Shown here: positions 6,872 through 18,985 of the stretch, piece after piece | How the letters are laid out: the number at the start of each line of letters is the position of its first letter | How positions within the stretch are numbered: the first letter of the stretch is position 1 | Assembly: GCA_030272585.1 (NCBI GenBank) | Contig: BSYQ01000007.1 | Location: 5,894,001-5,958,000 of the forward strand | Direction: 5' to 3' | From: Bryopsis sp. KO-2023 | Taxonomy: Eukaryota > Chlorophyta > Ulvophyceae > Bryopsidales > Bryopsidaceae | DNA: 64,000 nt | Position numbers and translations under genes: made by a program | Notes under the pieces: model-generated | Database searches by the model: none | Told to the model about the DNA's origin: nothing | The model's input: the letters and a program-made list of their open reading frames with translations, nothing else

Positions 6872-6881
6872 GTTCATTACG
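6872..6881 (+). repeat. Left 10-bp target-site duplication
   Basis: GTTCATTACG, identical and in the same orientation to 18976-18985. It lies exactly 8 nt outside the conserved block of the left terminal repeat. The right copy is also exactly 8 nt outside its terminal repeat, which supports one insertion event. Confidence 0.7.
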
Positions 6882-7025
6882 GTTCGGTACCTTCAGTCCG
6901 AATGCCATTGGTCCGAATGCGTGTCAGTCCGAATGCCGTAAGTCCGAATGTCGTAAGTCCGAACGCCGTCAGTCCGAATGCTGTTACTCCGAAAATTTCA
7001 GAAAGTGTTAATTTTCCACGTCGTC
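6882..7025 (+). repeat. Left terminal inverted repeat with 15-nt subrepeats
   Basis: From 6890 to 7025 it matches the reverse complement of 18833-18967 with few differences. The core consists of about seven head-to-tail 15-16-nt units of the form GTCCGAATGCCGTAA, followed by a shared single-copy stretch ending TTTTCCACGTCGTC. The outermost 8 nt (GTTCGGTA) match the other end only at the first two bases and one more. Confidence 0.75.
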
Positions 7026-7640
7026 GGCATGGCGTGGACTGGGGCATCCTGGTACCCGTGTTGGCTTGATATTTGCAGAAGGTCAGCAACTGCAGAAGTG
7101 GCGCAGCTGTTCAGCAGTTCACCGTGTAGGAAGGCAAAACCTGGATCACATCGGTTACGAAGGTGCACCCTGCAACCCCACAAAATCAAGAACCCATCCC
7201 TCGACGCGATCCCCAGCAGCGCGGGGACGCACCCCACGTGTTTGCGCGACCGAGTATGCGGAGCCACCTCAAAGGCGAAGTAAAAAAAATTGAGGTCAAA
7301 GAGGATATAAAAAGGAAATTACTTTTGGTTTTTTTTATTTTTTCTGTTGAAAGCACCAAAGAGAGACTGTTCTTTTTCATTCGTTCAACCTCGTGTTTTG
7401 CAATGGCATTGTGGGGGTGGGTGGGGGTGGTGTTTTTTTTCTTTGGGGGAAGGGGGGGGGGTTTAATAATACTGAGCAAAGATTTTAGTTGATAGTCAGT
7501 GAGTACAATTGAGTGATGGAGGATGACTGGGATGGCATGCTTATTTTTCCAATATTCAGGTGTTGTGCTTTACTCTTATTTGATCAGCTTACATAAAATT
7601 ATTTTGTTGATCAGTACAATAGTTTTGAATTTCCAGTTTC
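7026..7640. other. Inner left segment of the element, no recognised gene
   Basis: GC-rich sequence to about 7290, then T-rich with G runs. Short open frames occur on both strands but none resembles a known family. The N-terminal two thirds of ECD, expected upstream of the fragment that follows, was not found here. Confidence 0.4.
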
Positions 7641-7644
7641 TGTG

Positions 7645-10101
7645 GATGTGCCGGCAGAATGATGATCAGTTGGATGTCATGCCAGGCTGGGAGGATTTCT
7701 TGGGGAGTTTGAAATGAAAAGGATATTTTGGCGAAAACATACCGGGGTCAATGCGACAACGAGAACTGCTGTCTAAGGCCTCCGCAAGTTTCCTATCATG
7801 CTCGGGGCATCAATCGAAGATAAACCAACTGGTGTCCACTGCAGTGGCGATTGATAATATTTTGAAGGTAATTTCTACAATTATATCAGGGTTACCTAAG
7901 CAAATTAGGTGTTTGTTGCACCCCAAAACAGTACTCATATGAGGAAGAATGCCATTGCCATCAGGTGATCTTTGCTGCTGCTTTCAGAACTCCGATGGCG
8001 TTGGTACGCTCTGTCCTAAGGAGGATTTGTTTGCAGAAGATGATGACTCTTGGCTGTATATGGGGCAAAGCGATTTGGACATTGAATTGGACAAGCGACA
8101 AAAAGAGCTTCACAAGGAAACGTAAGAAGGAGATCCCCTCTCTGAGCAAGATGCATTCCATCCTGAGCAGTTGGTTGATGGATTCAAGTCATTCGTGGAC
8201 AAGATGTCTTCCCATGAGGGTGCAGAAGTGCCCGAAGGTAGTCTTGTGAATCCTCCTCGTATCCAGGGAAAAGTTGATAGTCAGCTTCACCTCTTGTTCT
8301 TGTGCCGTATGATCATTCTTGCCCTTTCTTGCCTTTCCAGAGAACTTTGGTGATATCAATTTCGACACATCACGATTCGTGAGTGAGCTTCGTGGTGTCG
8401 TGGGAATCATTCCTGGCAGCACGGATCAGTGTACAATATTTTTCAAGTCATAGGTGATGTCTCTTCTTCTTCGGCATGGGGGGACATGCAAAGACCAAGA
8501 AGGCCAAGGGGAAGGGGTCCATGAATGGGTGGAGATCTCAAAAGAGCCAGGGGCAATGTCCACTCTTTCTTACTCTCAACTTCTCGCTGTGGTGTAGGCA
8601 GAGACAGCAATAGACAGCGATGATGACAGTGTTGACAGTGAAGAGTTCAATCAAGCCTACTCAGTTGCCTGCCCAGAGCGAGGAATCTGCAAGGCATGGG
8701 CAGCATGTCGTTCCCAGCGAACGTTGCACCTGCATTTGGAGCCCAGCAGTTTGCATCGTTCAATACGAACCCACAGGGCACATTTCAATCTCAAGGTTTC
8801 GGAGGAGCTCCTCAGCAGCCCCAGGGAGGGTTTGGAGGAAATCCCAACCCCCAGGCTGGGTTCGCCAATTCAACAAGGAGATGGCGGTTTTGGTGGGGCT
8901 ATGCATGGCAACCAGACTGGATTCAACGGGAGCCCTCAGCCGCATAGTGGCTTTGAAGCAGTGCAGACATCTGGGTTTTATCCCCAGGGTGGTCAAGGTT
9001 ACTCTGGAATTCAGCCGGGCATGGTTAATCAACCTAAGTCTGGTTTGCAGGGGGGTTTGCAGTCGTCAGGCAACCCTTTTGCTTGAAAAAGGCAAAACTA
9101 AATTTATGGTCCTCGTTTGAAAAAAGAAATTGGATTTGGGGGGGGGGGGGAATGGGTGTTTTGAAATGAAGAAAGTGGAGAGGGGAGGGTTTGAGGTCAT
9201 GTTGCAAAACTGTGAAGAAATTGCAGATCGGGTGGGTTTTTCGGATGGGTGGGTGGCTGTTTCCAAGTGCATTCACTTTTGGGGAAAAGAAAAAAAAAGG
9301 GAAAGAAAGGTGTTCGATTGGGCTGGGTTTTTTTTCCCTTTTTTTTTGACACCTCTTTTCATATGAACCCAGAACCTGGGGTGGCCATCCTTCAGGGTGG
9401 AGTGTTTTATTTTAGAATGGCGGAGAAAAAACATCAGCAATTCGAAATGTGAATTTGCTGGTGGATGATGTTTCATTTTTCCTTCTTTTAGAGATTTCGG
9501 GCTGTTTTTTGTCGAATTTCGACTTTTCAGTATTCAGCGTCTTCAACAAATGGGGGGTCATGTCAGTTTCAACAAAAAGAAAAAGAAAAAGATTGTGAAT
9601 GTTTTTTTTCCCCTTATTTTAGGGAGGGGGGGCGAATGGTGGAAAACTATTTAAAAAAAAAGAGTCTCCAAGGGTTGGTCATGCCTACAACGTCCCAGGT
9701 TGATGGGATCGTGCGATCCTTTTTTTGAACAAGATAGCCTTTGCAGTGGCAATGCCCAAGGAGGAAGGGAGGATGGCGGAGCCTTGTTTATTGGCGAGTT
9801 TTTTTTTGACACTGTGCATTTGGGCGGCAGGTAATGTAAGGCCATGAATGAAGAGCTGAGTGGATCCAAATTGGACAGCAGTTTTGCCGTCGATCCCCAT
9901 GAGAGTCAGCCCACCACCAGCAGTGCTGCTGAGAACACCACCGATGGATTGACCCCTGTGGATGTTGACATCAATCTAGTCAGGGGGTTGCTTGAGTCAT
10001 ATTCCAGCCAGAATGGCATGGCAGGGCCTGCTGGAAATCTCTTAGGGATGATGGATATGAAGTTGCCTGGTCACAGTGAAACTCGAAGTTCTGAGTCGTA
10101 G
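7645..10101 (+). pseudogene. ECD: 5'-truncated, broken ECD/SGT1 (ecdysoneless) gene fragment
   Basis: ECD/SGT1 proteins act in pre-mRNA splicing and cell-cycle control. Pieces matching the C-terminal third occur in order: about 7645-7867 (WEDFLGSLK then KGYFGENIPGS), 7988-8237 (EDDDSWLYMGQSDLDIELD, then LVDGFKSFVDKMSSHEGAEV), 8341 to about 8420 (INFDTSRFVSELRGVVG), about 8598-8690 (DSDDDSVDSEEF), and 9841-10101 (PVDVDINLVRGLLESYSSQ with AGPAGNLLGMM, the family's signature C-terminus, stop TAG). There are in-frame stops inside conserved sequence: TGA at 7715-7717, in the place of a lysine in human ECD, and TAA at 8123-8125. Splice sites between pieces are still visible. The N-terminal two thirds is absent. 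Lying inside the transposon, it is best read as a captured, decayed fragment. Confidence 0.75.
8694..9086 (+). pseudogene. Gly/Gln-rich NPF-motif protein tail, frameshifted
   Basis: A low-complexity, coding-like stretch starting MGSMSFPANVAPAFGAQQF continues with Gly, Gln, Asn and Phe repeats. Near 8870 the frame must shift by one base to continue as GDGGFGGAMHGNQTGFNG and end GNPFA with TGA 9084-9086. Asn-Pro-Phe at or near the C-terminus is the ligand of EH domains, found in ArfGAP (AGFG) and epsin-type endocytic proteins. The exact family is not recognised. It lies between two exons of the ECD fragment, so it seems to be a further capture or a nested insertion. A sequencing error at the shift is possible. 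Confidence 0.5.
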
Positions 10102-13000
10102 GATGCTTTCCTGAAGGAAAAGCATTTTGAAACAAGTTGTTCTCTGCCTCACAAATCCCAGGAAGAGAGTTAGACAATGATGCAATAGAATGATCTTGAA
10201 GAGACGCGTGCAGGGATGGATCCTTGCAGAGAGAAGTGGGTCACAGATAACCCAACTCTTTGCACGCATACGCATCATTGTTTGCAACTTCTGAAATGGG
10301 AGAAGAAATTATAGTCGACTTGGACAATAGATATGTGCAACATCTGAAACAATGAGAAGTATTGATTATCCAATCTTGAAGGGCACTGTTTGTGCCAAGC
10401 ATAGCATCACACTTCACATTCATCGATCCGGATCGATGGGCAAGGGATCCCTTGCCCACTGACCTATATTCCGGAAATTAAGTTGAGAGAATATGACGAC
10501 AAATCAAACTACATCAATCATCCAGAGCAAGCACACAGCGCAAGAACTTGATCTGTGTATTGAATCAGTCATTAACTAGTCTAGTCTAGTGACTAGACTC
10601 TAGTCTATCCGCCTGATAGAATCATGCCATAAAAAAGAACATAACCTGATGTCCCAGTTGTGTGGAATACAGAGTTTTTTTAAATGCATGAAAGCATTTC
10701 TGCTTGGACAAAGTGCCATCCCTGCTGGCCTCCCTCACCATAAAAGCAAGGGTCTCATTCTGACAGGGAAATATGCCACCCCTTCAAACCTTCGACACAA
10801 AATTGCTCCCACACATTCAAAGCAATGGGTGATAGTTTGGTGATTTGTGGGAATGCTTAGGTGAGCAATGCTCACTGAGCATCGAGGATATTTATTTTGT
10901 GATATCAGTAGAATATTATACCTCCATTAGTGGAGGGGGTTGGAACACTGGTATTCATATGAGAAATACCCATCATATATTCATAAGTATTTGATAGATT
11001 TACCGCTTCAGCAAGGACAATTATTATGGGCAGATAGATCAAGCAAAGCAGAGTAAAAACTGAATATTATCTGGGAAACAGGAGAAAATTTGCTGACTCT
11101 TTTTTGGACTTTTTTTTTAAGATGTTGTAATATAGTTGGATTTCGTGGTAGATTTCCAGCAATGTATGAAGGCCTTTTTGGTGTTGGATGTTGGAGAGGG
11201 GGTTTTGTATGGTGTAAATTAGAGGAATGCTGGTTGGTTCGCTGGCTAGTTCATTTCTTTGGACGGGTTGTGAAGGAAACCTTCCTTTTGGATTAGGCAC
11301 TATCAGCTGCTTGGTCATTGATTCGTTTTTTTCAACACATTTTTGAGTATTTTGAGAGACGCAAAGTTTGGCTGTCAGCGCTTTCGTGTATCGGGACTGA
11401 CACAAGACTTTGTAAATAAGGGATAACGCTGTTTTGTTTTTTGTTTTATTTTGTTTTTATTTTTTTTTGGGGGGGGTGTGATGGCCTTCTTTTGCTGTTC
11501 TTTTTTCTGGCAAGATTTCTCTCGATTCTAGCCGGTCTCCTGCCTTTGGTGACTATAGAAAAGACACTCCTATTTTCCACAGTGACATGAAGCAATATTT
11601 TTTTTCACCCCCCGTATCAACAGTGAAAAAAAACCCCAACGTTCAACACAAACAGTTGTACTTACCCAACAGATGCATAGGAAGGATCTTGTTAACTTAT
11701 TCAACTTAGTTTAATCAGTTGCTCCAATTATTTTTTCCAATTGAGTTTGGGGTGTTATGGAGAAAGTATAAAGTATGCAAAGGAAGAAGGGGGGAGGGGG
11801 GAGTTCAAAAAATAACCAATGAAAAGAGAAGACTCCTGAGCAGAGGGCATAGAAAGAAAAGGTGCCAAGGGTGGGGTAACAAAAAAAAATTACTATCGAA
11901 TTTACAGCATTGAAAAGCAGGATGTGTACCTTTTTTTGTCTATTTAAATGATCCACAACTCGAATTTTAATCACTTCTGTTCCTTGTAACTCTATCACCT
12001 GTCATATTTTTTTTTTCAAATCTGTGGAAACTTAATTTAGATGGTAGGGAGTTGGGATCAAATTTAGTTCACATAATTTCTGGATACAACGATCTATGAA
12101 GCAATGGATGGATTAGAACAATCCAAGAAAACATAGAAAAATATTCTAAAAAGATGTCAGGATGGTGGTTGTATAAGACACAATGACATATTTCTCGGAC
12201 AGGCTCCAAGGGCCTAGCAGCCCACTTAATAACTATTTTTCCAAAAATTCAAATAATGACCTACAGCAATTAGAAAAATTAAAATTTCAAAATTTGATTT
12301 TTAAAATTTGCTCTTTTTTTTCCACAACACCATTCGAATACACAGACAGCAGCAATCTTGATCCATATGACACAGCAACCTCAAAATTGGCACTAAGGAA
12401 ACATCGTTCGTTCACAATGAACCTGAATCTCCTCTCCATAATGAGTTTGTCTCTTGGCACTACAAAATCTGCAACAAAACCTTACTTCCAAAAAGTGAAC
12501 AAGAAAAGAAATTGTTAAATTGTGACATATTCTTCACCCACTCCTCTTACTGGTGTCAGGCAGCTTCTTCGTGTGTTATCATGATTTGATTTGATTGGCT
12601 GTTTTTCTTTGGGGGGTGTCGCTCTACATACATTGGTGTTTTCATCGAAAGAATTTGCTTGGAGATCAACAAACGTTGTATTTGCTTTAAAAAGCACTCG
12701 CTAAAACACGGTCGTCCACTTCTTGTTACATTCGATCAAATTTATCTGTCTCTTCCTCAGTGAGGAATCCTCACATTCTTTTTCACTAATTTCACTTCAA
12801 TGCTGACCCGCATTCTCCAAACACACTTTTCGGAAAGTCAGTCGTTTCATGTACTAATCCTATCTATTTTGGTTTTGATCATCCAGCTAGAGTCCGTGAA
12901 AATTGTGTATCAATCCCCACTGCTATATTTACAATTGGCAACACGGAACTCGCCAAGGTAAGTTATGCCACAAAAAAAGAGAAAAGAAAAAACTGGCAGG
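10102..13000. other. Non-coding interior of the element
   Basis: AT-rich sequence with no exon I recognise on either strand. Minor structures are a short hairpin around 10575-10605 built from repeated CTAGT units, and CCTCCA-TTAG-TGGAGG near 10920. No transposase or reverse transcriptase similarity was seen. Confidence 0.45.
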
Positions 13001-14011
13001 TTAGGTAGGGGGAAAATTCTCGAAATCTAGTTTAGAGTCATAAAAATCATTCAAAATTTCCCTGGCTGTTTCAGAAAGATCTTCATTTTCACGAATCGCC
13101 AGCCTGCAAGGAAAGAAAAAAAGTGCTTTCAACAGCTTATTAGAAAAAAGAACACCCCTTTTTCTGAAATAGAGTAGTGCAACGCCCTATGCTTATCAAA
13201 CCTGATGATCAGATTCACAACAAAAATGCAGTCCAGATAGCTGATGCAAATGGTAATTTTTTTTTGCCACAATGATGCAAGGGTAACCTCACTGCTAAAT
13301 AGAAAGAATAACTCCCCGATCAGCAAGTGGGTTAGTCATCCTATTTCTATGCCCATCCAAGTTGGAATTTTCCCAAAAAGAAAGCAGGCATCATCCACTC
13401 ACAACAAAAGGCGCATTTCAGAAGTCGAAAAACTAGCCCTTGTAAAACAAAACAAAACAAAAGCACTCCTCACCGGTCAAGGCCATCCCGCCCTCCAAGT
13501 TCTTCAATCATTTCGGCGAAATGATTGTCTTCCACTCCTGTTTTGTGAGTTCCCCTGATGCTAAAATCGTGTTCAGTCCAGCGACACCAACACTTTGACG
13601 AACGATTTTATGATTAATTCGTTTGCGAAGTAATCTCGGATGACCTATGATTTAAAAAATCCAAAAAAGTACGTCAATGATACCCAAGTTCAGGACGATT
13701 CTGGATGCCTGTTCGTTATGTGGGTGGGGTATTGCTGGGAACAGATCAATGTCACTGGCTAAAACCCAGAATATCACTGGCTGGTGATGGTGGTGGCTCG
13801 TCGATGTCAAATTGCAAATTGCCATCCCAGTGATGTACCTCGTCTGATGCAACTGCTGCTGAGTTGGCAAGAACTAGCACAGCCATTTTCTTGACCGAAA
13901 AATCCTCCCGTATCACATACTCCCCCATGATGTCCAGGAAATTGTACTTGACTAAGACCTCCAGTCGAGGCGGGGAATCTATCACCAAATTGTTAGCGAT
14001 TTCACACAGAT
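13001..14011 (-). pseudogene. Importin-alpha (karyopherin-alpha) C-terminal fragment, broken
   Basis: Armadillo-repeat nuclear import adaptor. The minus-strand exon 13839-14011 encodes ANNLV, VLVKYNFLDIMGEYV and EDFSVKKMAVLVLANSAA, matching a late ARM repeat (compare DIKKEAAWAISNATSGG). The next segment, 13474-13644, begins IRDYFANELIIKSFVKVLVS. The match then moves to another frame (LNTILASGELTKQE) and shifts again to DNHFAEMIEELGGRDGLDR, the typical ARM10 stretch. The last exon, 13001-13103, gives LAIRENEDLSETAREILNDF with TAA 13001-13003. The need to change frame inside one exon marks it as broken. The N-terminal IBB domain and most ARM repeats are missing. Identity is moderate, based on pattern only. 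Confidence 0.6.
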
Positions 14012-14759
14012 CTGCAAAGAAAAAAATTCCATGCTGAAATTTACAATGCAAAAACACCCTTGCCCCACATAGAGCATGATATGCCATAAACACTCTCACT
14101 GCACAAGTCTGGCAAATTTGGGAGGGAAAAAAAACTATTTTCTTCTTTCTTTCAAGAAATTATGACTGGCTGATTTGAAGGTACCTTCGTAGATCAGAGC
14201 AAATCCCATCTCTTGTCATTTGCACGTTTAGGCTTCTTGCCAGCCCCTTCTCCAGCAATTCATCCAGTATGTCTTTTCTGTGGTGATGTAGCGGATGCTC
14301 CTCATCAAGTACAGCAAAGCTTCCTCATCTTGGATGCTACCAGAATAAAACCGCCACTAATTACAGTGTTTAGTGATATGTGGGAGTGCTTCGGGGGTAC
14401 TGGCCATATTGTGACTTGTGGAACCAATTGCTGACTGACTCAATATATGTTGAGGGGCATGAGGGTTGGTAGGTGGTTCCTTTTACCTTATTTCAGTTTC
14501 ATTTCTTTTTATTTTTGTATGTTTTGCTTGTTACTTTTTTCATGACATTTTTTCTTTTCATTGTCCAAACTGAACCAAAATCTGGGTGATGGGTGGAAGT
14601 TCACCCGTCAGGGACGAACACAATCCTCCTTACATATCTCCACAAAATTTTTCGTGAAAGACAACAACAACATCTTTTTTTTTCACCAGCTTGATTCCTA
14701 CAGGTTGGTTTTCCAAATACTCCAGCATCCGAAAAAAAAAAAAACATAATTAAAATCCA

Positions 14760-17700
14760 ATCCACAGGAGAAGCTCTGTCGTGAGGGCGATTCGGGCGAT
14801 CAGGTCAGCGGCTTGATGTCGAATTTTCGCAGCTTAGTTGTTCAGCCGTCACTTGATGGTACCGCAGACCTGGGGGAGGTAGGGCTTCGCTCTTCGATTG
14901 TGCAGGGAATTGATCACCATTCCAAACCTGTTCAGCATGACATGGGCATCATCGCTCACCTTCAACCGACAGCAGAAATTTATGTCAATTAGATGCCTAA
15001 AACAATTCAAAATACGGTTTCGTATATTGCGCTCCTGACTAGCATTGTCCCCACCAGTGGAGAAAACTCACTTGCTCTTGGAAGGCATACAAGATGCCGT
15101 CGATCAGCAGCTCCTCCAACCGAGCATCAATATATGCCGTCCCCAGTTTCGAAATAACCTTGTCAATGGTTTCCACCACCATTCTCCGATACAGCTCACT
15201 TTCGTCCTTCAAATCCTCCACAATGCGGCTGATGATATCCCCGCAGCCCACCTTTTCAGCCAACGCCACCACTGAATGAACAACTTGGAACACCAGACTG
15301 CATCTTAACCTGTGCCAACATTTCCACGTTTTTGAAAAGGTTTCTTCCCAAAGTGATCTATACACACCTGTACGATTTTTTTCATTTCCTCGTCGGGTGT
15401 TTGGAATTCGCGAATTTAAATGAACATCTCTTCCCGAGTGTAGTAGTTAGCATATCTTGCATCCATCAATGGAATCAAATCCTGCACACGAAAACACAAA
15501 AAAATTGACCCTCTGTTCAAAATGTGTCGTTAGACCTTGACTTCACATTTCCACCGACCTATGCTATTGCACTCTGTTTTCAATCAGATGTATTGCCCCA
15601 AATTTCACTCAAGATATGCATCGAGTCCCAAGGCATTCCCGAAAAGAATATCCATATGTGGATGCATAGTTGGGTGAATGATTCAGAAATCTGGCGCAGA
15701 AGTTTTTTTTTGCAGCGAAAAACTAGCAACTTGAACAAGGGTCCGCAGAGGTGTTGTAGCTCCCAAAAACAAGGGGAAGAAGAAAAACAATTTTGGAAAT
15801 AAACGTGCCAGCAGCCAAGGAACAATAAATTCAGATTCTAAGAACACTTACAAGGGAGAATTGACCACAGAACTGCATACCGATTGCCTTGAGAAAAGCG
15901 GCCAGCACTTTTCCCCTCAATGTACGGATGCCTTTCCAGAGAGGCTCCAACACATCATCGACACTTTCGATTCCATAAGGAGCAGCAGCTTCAGCCAACG
16001 CCGCCAAAGACAGGGCCGTGAAGGTTTTCACTTTCTGGTTCTCATCCACCAATCCGTGCTTGATGATATCCACCAGTGCTTATAAATGTGGCAACACTGC
16101 CACGCCCATCAAAATGGCTATTTGCTGCACGATCTTGATTCCTGGATGCAGATTCATTGGTTTAAAAAACAGAAAAAACAGACAGCAAGTGTTCCTGTAT
16201 TAACAACAGTTTTTATGGCCAGAGAAGGTGGAGCACCAAAAAGAAACATTGTTGAAATTCGCTAGGACGGACCCCAGCAAAAGACCAGTTGCTCAGCTTG
16301 CACAAAATGGAATTTTGACTCACCCGTATGTCTCGCTTGCCATGATTTCTTACTGAGGCACACCGCCTTCAAGAGCAACTTGGGAATGCCCAATGCAGAT
16401 GCGACCACACAGAACGCTCTCGCTGTGGTGTTTCTGACATATTCATCCATTTTGTTCAAGTCTGGTCGCATGGCTGCAATCATGGAAGGCAGCCCAGCTG
16501 CTTTCGACAAATTAGCGATGATTTCTCTGCCCTCCACCCTGGCATAGCAGTCCTCATCAATCAACAGAGGCTCGATAACGACCAAGATCTTGTGAACGAA
16601 AGGCCTGACCAACTCATCCAGATTGAAGAGGATCCGTTCAATCACCTGACCAGAAACAACACACACACACACTCGGTGAGCACAATTGTTTACCTAACAC
16701 AAATTGATCCACTTCCAGCACCATTTCAATATAAGTTTCCTCCCAAGATGTGCAAACAAGACAAACTGAATGCACAACTTCTCTTATTTTTGGCTCCCCA
16801 CTGTCCCAAAGCCGAAACCGTTAGTCATAAACAGCGAAAAAATGGACTCACCTTGACCAGCAAATGCCTTTCTTCATCCTCCAGAGTGGGCTGCATCAGC
16901 AATGGCAAGATCTGATTTAACTAGGCTCCTGCACCGAACTACCTGGATTTGTCTGGCAGCTGGCTGAGAGCGGACTTCCTTTGCGGGGGGGATCCATTTT
17001 TGACCTGCAGCAACAGCTTCATGATTTTCCTTTCCTTGAAATCCTCCGAGTTCAGGTCTCCTTCGTTGATTTCTTGAAGTAAGACCCCAAAGTGTTGCAA
17101 ATCTTCAGGCTTCATTTCTGGCAGCCCCTCAGGGGTGGCTGGAACATCAGATCTCCCCAATCTGCACAATACAGTCCGTCCAAAATTAGACGTATGCAAA
17201 CCTTTTTGGTTGCTCAGCAAACCAACGAGTTCTCAGTGACCGGCCCGGACGAGGATTGTTCGGTGGATCCACGGTCCGAAATATAATTATCTATTCAATT
17301 CTTGATGCATATCCCACAAACGAAATCGACAAAACACCAGTGGGTATATGCCATGTCTTTTCTTAGCAAGGTTGGTTATGGAAGAAAAAAACCAGGGCAA
17401 AATCCGTGATTGTCAGGTTGTCGATCAGCCAGCTTTAAAACAGGGAAAAATTGTTCCAGATCATTTCATGCAGACAGGAGGGTTGCACTCACACATTGTC
17501 TTCGGGAATGCTGTATAGTGGGGTGCCTCCGATGGGGGTGGGCGTTGCTGTCACTTTTCTTGCTGGAGTTCGAATCGGTTGATAGCCTTGAGGTGGGTCC
17601 AAGATCTAGGGGCAAGGGGGAAAGAATTGAAGTCAAGCAGAAGGAGAAAAACATCTTAGCCAAAAGACAGGCATGCCACCATGAAAAGCTGGAATATGTC

Positions 17701-18330
17701 TCACTCAAAGACCAAGGGGTCGAAGATGTGAAGAGCAGCAAGCTAAGGGGCCCCATCAAATAATAACAAAGGACGAGAAAACATCTCCACATGCGTTTTC
17801 CAACTCCAGAACGAGGTGGCTTTAAATATCCTACCCAAAAGTTGCCAAAAACAGTGTTTTTCCTTTGCAATCCACATCATCGCATGCAAGGTATCAGAGA
17901 TTAATATTACTTCTGATAGTATCCGAATGAACCCCACCTTGTATCCTTCTTTCTCTCCGGCCAGCATGGAATCGACCTCATCATCAGCCAAAGGCCTGTT
18001 TCTTTCCTCAATTTCCCGATCCCATCACATTTGCTGGAAACATACGAAATTTGGATTTAAAAAACATGTCTTTACACTCACACGGTGTGGACAATTTCAG
18101 CATAACTTCATTCTGACAAAATATCTCCACCGTAAAATTGCACAACTCAATCTTCCAGGAGTTGGGGTTTCATCCCATCTGTTTCTTCTTGGAGTGGGCT
18201 CCACTCCCAGTCTGCCTGGTGTGGGGGTGGCATCCCACCTCCCAGGTGTGGCATCAGAGTGACCTGGAGTGGCATCCCATCATGAACCTCAATGACCAGG
18301 AGTGCCATCTGCATCCCAATCCAAGGTCTT
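14760..18330 (-). pseudogene. SF3B1: SF3B1 (splicing factor 3b subunit 1) fragment with many in-frame stops
   Basis: U2 snRNP component that recognises the branch site. Minus-strand pieces follow SF3B1 in order from the Thr-Pro/Trp-Asp repeat region (about 18150-18330: RWDATPTPG, RRNRWDETPTPG) through REIEERNRPLADDEVDSML (17941-18020), PIRTPARKVTATPTPIGG (17495-17605), ERKIMKLLLQVKNGSPPQR (about 17000), then HEAT repeats ([20 protein letters not shown] near 16550; [16 protein letters not shown] near 16340; [18 protein letters not shown] near 15950; [20 protein letters not shown] near 15220; AKPYLPQVCGTI near 14870). At least six in-frame stops interrupt conserved segments, for example in WRLNN (TGA for Trp), [18 protein letters not shown] and LPHL-stop-ALV. 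About 500-600 codons of the gene are represented. The 5' start and the C-terminal third are missing. This is a captured, decayed genomic fragment. Confidence 0.85.
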
Positions 18331-18345
18331 CACTTTTTTCCTGAA

Positions 18346-18832
18346 AAAAAAGCAGGGGTGAAAACAACACACTCACGCCTTGTCCTGTAGGTCCTCAACC
18401 TATATCTATATATAGTGTGGGATGATACCACACTTCTGCAGGCAATGCCAACAGAGTTTGGCATTTTGGCATTGTAACACAAACCAAAACTTAAGGAATC
18501 ACACAGGATTGACTGTACCAATTGAGGGTGTGCCATGCAGCAAACTGGTTTATTTCCAAACTGGGTTGCAGTTAAGGAATTACGCTACGAAGCTCTGCGT
18601 CCCGCAGAGGGCAGGAGTGTCACGCGGGGCGAGCTCGATGCCCGACGCAGGATTTCGACGTTTCGCCAGGGCCCTTCTTGGTGGTGGAGGACGACGGAAA
18701 GCAGTGGTGGGAGCAGTGGTCAAGCAAGACTTGGTACAGATTTCGGCGGCCCTCCGTCGTGCTGCTGATGCCGTGCGGACCTTGGTTCGGAGCAAGAAGT
18801 GTGTCGCTGAAGCGTGGAGTCCGCGCGGACTT
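18346..18832. other. Inner right segment of the element, no recognised gene
   Basis: GC-rich from about 18590 onward. Open frames occur on both strands but look like composition effects. No homology to the inner left segment was seen beyond the terminal repeat. Confidence 0.4.
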
Positions 18833-18975
18833 GACGACGTGGAAAATCAACACTTTTTTAAATTTCGGAGTAACAGCATTCGGACTGATGGCGTTCGGAC
18901 TTGCGACATTCGGACTTACGGCATTCGGACTGACACGCATTCGGACTAATGGCATTCGGACTGAAGGGAGTTCAC
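18833..18975 (-). repeat. Right terminal inverted repeat with 15-nt subrepeats
   Basis: Reverse-complement copy of the left terminal repeat. Units of the form CATTCGGACTTACGG are repeated, flanked inside by GACGACGTGGAAAATCAACA. The shared block ends at 18967 and is followed by 8 divergent nt and then the duplicated target GTTCATTACG. Confidence 0.75.
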
Positions 18976-18985
18976 GTTCATTACG
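18976..18985 (+). repeat. Right 10-bp target-site duplication
   Basis: GTTCATTACG, direct copy of 6872-6881. It ends 100 bp before the start codon of the HAUS4-like gene, so the insertion lies in that gene's promoter or 5' UTR. Confidence 0.7.

Follow-up and report, generated by a model that had tools for sequence, protein, structure and literature searches.

The 64,000-nucleotide stretch of the Bryopsis sp. KO-2023 genome analysed here (the window; C7:5894001-5958000, with the contigs of the 28-contig, 91.09-Mb assembly written as C1, C2 and so on) contains a 12.1-kb gene-capturing transposon that we classify, with very little doubt, as a non-autonomous Mutator-like element (MULE) of the Pack-MULE type. 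An earlier reading, made from the letters of the window without database searches (the sequence-only reading), had proposed a Pack-MULE-type element in an alga, and in substance it was right: the tips, the 8-bp target-site duplications, distant copies of the element, the donor loci of its captured gene fragments and the MULE domains in its relatives all point the same way. The algal host is itself supported by 107 genome matches to the light-harvesting domain PF00504.

The inverted terminal repeats that the sequence-only reading had placed about 12 kb apart are present (arms 6890-6997 and 18860-18967; 108 nucleotides, 96% complementary; boundaries in Table 1). The outermost tips are not mirror images of each other (the A end begins with GGTTCGGTACC or GGTTCGGTGC, the B end with CGTGAACTCC), and beyond these unlike tips both ends enter the same array, with a period of about 15 bp. 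The direct 10-mer GTTCATTACG is also where it had been seen, at 6872-6881 and 18976-18985, but its interpretation as a 10-bp duplication was rejected when the flanks of nine elements were compared: the duplication is 8 bp long, because the extra base on each side is the element's own tip. The chance of an identical 8-mer, estimated from random 8-mer pairs in the window, is 7.5e-5. MULEs make target-site duplications of 8-11 bp, as described in passages of PMC6446971, and the 8-bp duplications of this family, exact for all nine elements with paired ends, lie within that range.

The family is small and recently mobile. Nine elements have both ends: the window element, a second copy at C7:234 kb, six copies of 15.3 kb and one of 70.5 kb on C8. 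The left end, searched against the genome, gave 26 rows (19 in the nine paired elements, four strong solitary ends at C5:4977814, C12:1400529, C3:4971260 and C7:3054341, and three weak or short), and the search with the right end yielded 35, of which 20 fall in the nine elements, 5 at the same four solitary loci, and 10 are short or weak. The sequence-only reading had raised the possibility of terminal repeats scattered through the genome as unpaired ends; solitary ends exist, and among strong matches they are a minority, four against nine paired elements. It had also proposed looking for other copies bounded by duplications, and these were found, in the copy at C7:234 kb and in seven further relatives sharing the ends. 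The C7:234-kb copy, separated from the window element by 5.65 Mb of their shared contig, matches it at 99.92% identity over 12,000 bp (six mismatches, three gap openings). It exceeds the window element by 255 bp, carries an insert in its B repeat and is flanked by its own 8-bp duplication. The six larger copies (15,258-15,292 bp, with terminal inverted repeats of about 366 bp at 91-92%) are 98.96-99.99% identical to one another, and besides end-proximal sequence the 12-kb and 15-kb types have three interior stretches in common. When 11 A flanks were compared with as many B flanks (on each side those of the nine paired elements and of two solitary ends), each A flank of the nine paired elements matched exactly one B flank at 8 of 8 positions, and every other combination at 5 of 8 or fewer; in four elements (the window element, C7:234 kb, C7:3.61 Mb and C8) this partner is the element's own other end.

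A candidate for the autonomous relative that the sequence-only reading had suggested seeking was found, in the form of transposase domains on C8 and C12. Two of the 13 genome matches to the MULE-type DDE transposase domain PF10551 lie in the family's elements, at C8:2515133-2515423 within the 70.5-kb element and at C12:1387117-1387407, about 13.3 kb inward from the A end (54.3 bits in both cases, against a cut-off of 27.6). A FLYWCH domain (five matches in the genome) scores at or just above its cut-off just upstream of PF10551, the C8 pair spanning C8:2513514-2515423. MULE-type ends accompany these domains: the C8 relative has both ends and the C12 relative has the A end, and the identity between the two is 99.1% over 9.6 kb counted from the A end and 99.0% over 3.75 kb around the transposase. 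The transposase contains DGTFK, CDFE and NNNLEGWH, whose acidic residues we take to resemble the MULE catalytic triad; a search with its putative 222-residue exon returned four relatives, three of them 33-35% identical over 75-77% and one 51% identical over 28%. Judged from its domains, this FLYWCH-MULE transposase is likely to be the family's mobiliser in trans: it would bind the repeat arrays in the ends, excise the element and then insert it with an 8-bp stagger. The stretch from the A end to the transposase is about 17.5 kb longer in the C8 element than in that of C12; further in, the C8 element contains satellite arrays whose period is about 168-178 bp (C8:2520975-2524494 and C8:2533646-2544752), beside a 630-bp perfect direct repeat. 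Because of this excess, the arrays and 19.7 kb that are unread, the element may have moved at a size other than 70.5 kb. An open reading frame at C8:2517826-2518686 that had looked USP-like by eye has no Pfam match and is not claimed as such.

We located the donors by searching positions 7030-18690 against the host's own genome, followed by detailed alignment. The parental loci that the sequence-only reading had asked to be sought lie outside the element, at six donor loci whose segments account for 9,666 of its 12,096 bp (about 80%), at 81-95% identity by segment and with the non-coding stretches between exons retained. The donors number at least six, not the four that had been named, the extra short pieces coming from C5 and from a further site on C1. 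Two of the four gene names stand: exons of the ECD donor match PF07093 (Pfam name SGT1), which we take to be the ecdysoneless (ECD) family, and an exon of the SF3B1 donor matches SF3B1 in PDB. For NPF the donor locus was found, but its open reading frame has no Pfam match; importin-alpha, the name given to the third donor, is unconfirmed after Pfam and PDB searches (two open reading frames without a Pfam match, and no meaningful PDB match), and we call that donor importin-like. The mixed orientation of the pieces was correctly read, with ECD and NPF on the forward strand and the importin-like and SF3B1 pieces on the reverse. The whole ECD donor span is C1:5832677-5835170 and that of the importin-like donor C1:10786771-10790749; the ECD donor runs past the captured part, with the PF07093-matching exon almost wholly outside it, and the donor genes are likely to be intact. 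Other places in the genome, including C5:6.67 Mb, C9:4.87 Mb, C4:3.09 Mb, C11:3.90 Mb and C1:5.66 Mb, match the interior of the 15-kb type at no less than 80%, and the C8 and C12 elements also contain, at about 89%, the Na/H exchanger piece (PF00999) that this type carries. Fragments of SF3B1 at C19:20634-20918 and of ECD at C11:1802605-1803024, outside the known copies, share with the window element most of their differences from the donor (11 of 281 and 20 of 420 sites, respectively), so other carriers of these fragments may exist.

The arrangement of the pieces bears on how they were captured. The NPF piece and the piece from C1:2.40 Mb lie within the ECD piece, and the ECD donor coordinates are continuous across this nested insertion, with a 4-bp overlap; in the SF3B1 piece the window lineage is missing 826 bp of donor DNA, again with a 4-bp overlap at the join, and this stretch is retained in the 15-kb lineage. 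Part of the mosaic is ancestral, because the order NPF, C1:2.40 Mb, ECD is common to the 15-kb lineage. The nesting and the SF3B1 join fit, we infer, the repair of breaks with template switching, which would explain how one captured piece came to lie inside another without evident loss of donor bases. On this view the element would have taken up its fragments from DNA and not through RNA, as breaks inside it were repaired by copying and template switching; its copies would then have spread, perhaps with recombination between copies of the same kind. Capture by an RNA route, with precise loss of introns at six gaps between element and donor, was dropped because the gaps, in the sequences inspected, resemble deletions more than clean introns, one of them removing SF3B1 coding bases, and because other non-coding stretches are retained.

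The captured gene pieces look non-functional. Broken reading frames, noted already in the sequence-only reading, are borne out for ECD (two stops in captured exons) and SF3B1 (357 donor exon bases lost), and the importin-like piece also has two stops. Changes private to the 12-kb lineage fall at 9 of 342 exon sites of SF3B1 and 15 of 1295 sites elsewhere, and those private to the 15-kb lineage at 4 of 342 and 17 of 1295; exons have therefore not been spared. The nine exon changes private to the window lineage are distributed 5, 2 and 2 over codon positions 1, 2 and 3. In five stretches common to the two lineages, the donor is distinct from both at 4.0-8.5% of sites; changes confined to one lineage amount to 0-1.5% in the window lineage and 0.8-2.5% in the 15-kb lineage.

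Three other explanations were weighed against a Pack-MULE. That selection maintains the captured pieces as functional chimeric genes is very unlikely: the differences between element and donor are indeed concentrated at third codon positions (92 of 1074 sites, against 21 of 1074 at second positions), but this bias would also fit constraint on the donor genes, and the stops, the lost exon bases and the unspared exons on the element-only branches argue the other way. Mobilisation by a hAT or KDZ transposase, both associated with 8-bp duplications, has slighter odds still. hAT transposons do make 8-bp duplications like those seen here, and they are very abundant in this genome, with at least 150 matches to the hAT dimer domain (among the matches listed, many are in open frames of 774-839 amino acids) and 35 further candidates unscored. 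Nevertheless, both relatives found with a transposase carry MULE and FLYWCH domains, and none of the 150 listed hAT dimer matches (the 35 unscored candidates aside) falls in the C8 or C12 element; the KDZ transposase domain PF18758 has no match in the genome, but the 14 control genomes gave none either. The window element itself holds none of the 13 MULE, 5 FLYWCH or 150 listed hAT genome matches, those being the families scanned.

Least credible of all is a patchwork of segmental duplications and pseudogenes that merely looks bounded by repeats, although the pieces are indeed broken, divergent gene copies in mixed orientation. Such a patchwork is disfavoured by the existence of a second bounded copy, the 99.92% identical one 5.65 Mb away with a duplication of its own, unless that copy is an assembly artefact; the seven further relatives with the same tips speak against it as well.

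Several observations weigh against the Pack-MULE interpretation or parts of it. No compact autonomous copy is known, the C8 element being enlarged by insertion and satellite arrays with 19.7 kb unread, no B end was found for the partial copy on C12, and mobilisation by the C8/C12 transposase is deduced from domains, not from observed transposition. No empty site was found within the same genome, where the joined-flank query matched only its own two halves at the element's site. In the exon compared, the NPF piece is free of stops, and two gaps (11450-12550 and 14364-14780; 1,518 bp in all) lack an identified donor; among the loci compared they match only the second copy, plus short weak places, the longest at 76% over about 175 bp (C1:10804057-10804222). 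Finally, in five of the nine elements the flanks match a neighbour's end, which calls for inversions or assembly error: three elements at C1:11.16-11.28 Mb are exchanged in a cycle and two at C12:3.29-3.35 Mb reciprocally, and a single inversion at C12, or two at C1, between copies in opposite orientation would restore own-end pairing. The two regions (C1:11163914-11276240 and C12:3288960-3348770) hold five 15.3-kb copies, and the neighbours with exchanged flanks are 99.95-99.99% identical over 15.3 kb. The exchange may reflect recombination between copies or assembly error; if the assembly is right, it suggests recombination between large, near-identical copies, with inversion of the intervening DNA.

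The coding differences also bear on the origin of the captured fragments. At second codon positions the window element differs from its donors at 8 of 446 sites in SF3B1 (a third of 1338 exon sites), 6 of 275 in ECD, 4 of 217 in the importin-like piece and 3 of 136 in NPF, or 21 of 1074 summed over the four donors (2.0%; interval 1.2-3.0%). Non-exon differences amount to 7.6%, 10.2%, 7.6% and 7.7%, respectively, where the ECD value is probably inflated by gapped alignment and where, the exons having been delimited by eye from open reading frames, 'non-exon' may hold unmarked exon. Second positions bound the time that a fragment has spent unconstrained in the element, so that direct capture with equal clocks (half of 7.6%) predicts about 41 differences in 1074 sites; the 21 seen are fewer (Poisson P 0.0005). 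This weakly suggests that the captured gene copies were by then already distinct from the present donors, with a divergence at capture of 3.6% according to simple arithmetic (1.6-5.2% over the interval). It is conceivable, if rather unlikely, that they were assembled in another lineage (a hybridising strain or related species) with genes about 4% diverged and then entered this genome, in which case the element would be a fossil sample of another genome. The same pattern would arise from deep polymorphism within the species, or if genes changed faster than elements.

This is a Pack-MULE family of a known kind, notable for its size, its algal host and its visible transposase partner. Pack-TYPE elements are defined in PMC8903248, and gene capture in plants is reviewed in PMC13317346. 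Like plant Pack-MULEs, the family has MULE-type ends, duplications in the 8-11 bp range (PMC6446971), intron-bearing gene fragments and a transposase that would act in trans; unlike them it has an algal host, sizes of 12.1-15.3 kb (the Pack-MULEs of Jiang et al. 2004, as given in a passage of PMC6431247, include none above 7 kb and are mostly of 1-2 kb) and ends whose outermost 9-10 nucleotides differ. Animal Pack-TIRs, in the account of PMC8277862, similarly point to capture by gap filling or template switching with short microhomology, and the multicopy ones are thought to have spread by transposition; here a single family shows a nested mosaic drawn from six or more donors, and the genome that holds it also holds a transposase-bearing relative. 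The nearest algal parallel appears to be the giant DNA transposons of Ectocarpus (passages of PMC12477816), mostly above 10 kb, several transposase-less families of which are called analogous to Pack-MULEs; those belong to other superfamilies (KDZ, EnSpm and Sola-1), whereas the present family is a MULE with donors mapped piecewise. FLYWCH-bearing MULEs (for example MuDRx-Phytophthora and one TvMULE, as named in PMC6446971) likewise combine a MULE transposase with a FLYWCH zinc finger; the relatives listed for the 222-residue exon here are 33-35% identical over 75-77%, or 51% over 28%. Among the papers listed, as titles, abstract openings and passages and with subscription papers outside the scope, we recognised no algal Pack-MULE precedent. 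With donors, two lineages that share part of the mosaic and a candidate transposase in one genome, the order of capture is partly readable and the mechanism of capture becomes testable outside plants and animals.

Table 1. Features of the window element (window positions; donors by contig)
Feature	Position	Strand	Remarks
Whole element	6881..18976	+	12,096 bp; both tips common to eight other elements
A-end terminal repeat	6881..7025	+	Tip GGTTCGGTACC, then array of ~15-bp period
B-end terminal repeat	18831..18976	-	Tip CGTGAACTCC
Left 8-bp target-site duplication TTCATTAC	6873..6880	+	Flank comparison
Right 8-bp target-site duplication TTCATTAC	18977..18984	+	Flank comparison
Captured piece	7166..7287	+	Donor C5:906749-906867, 92%
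ECD fragment, first part	7282..8669	+	Donor C1:5835170-5833468
NPF-gene fragment nested in ECD fragment	8668..9664	+	Donor C1:9257457-9258471, 92%
Captured piece	9664..9840	+	Donor C1:2396926-2396745, 88%
ECD fragment, second part	9840..10677	+	Donor C1:5833471-5832677; resumes where first part ended
148 bp common to the transposase-bearing C8 and C12 elements	10678..10825	+	93%
Importin-like fragment	10878..11449	-	Donor C1:10790749-10790173, 91%
Second fragment of importin-like donor region	12551..14363	-	Donor C1:10788621-10786771, 89%
SF3B1 fragment	14781..18581	-	Donor C10:1344535-1349483; internal deletions relative to donor

Two smaller features of the family's ends were also seen. At C2:1220208-1220525 two family ends face each other across about 310 bp and may be a miniature relative. 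A terminal repeat contains an insert of about 250 bp, beginning AGAGCATCCCCACCGCGG, that recurs elsewhere (locus L009 at about 688-935, L027 at 7960-8215 and L028 at 605-876); it is perhaps a small TTA-targeting element.

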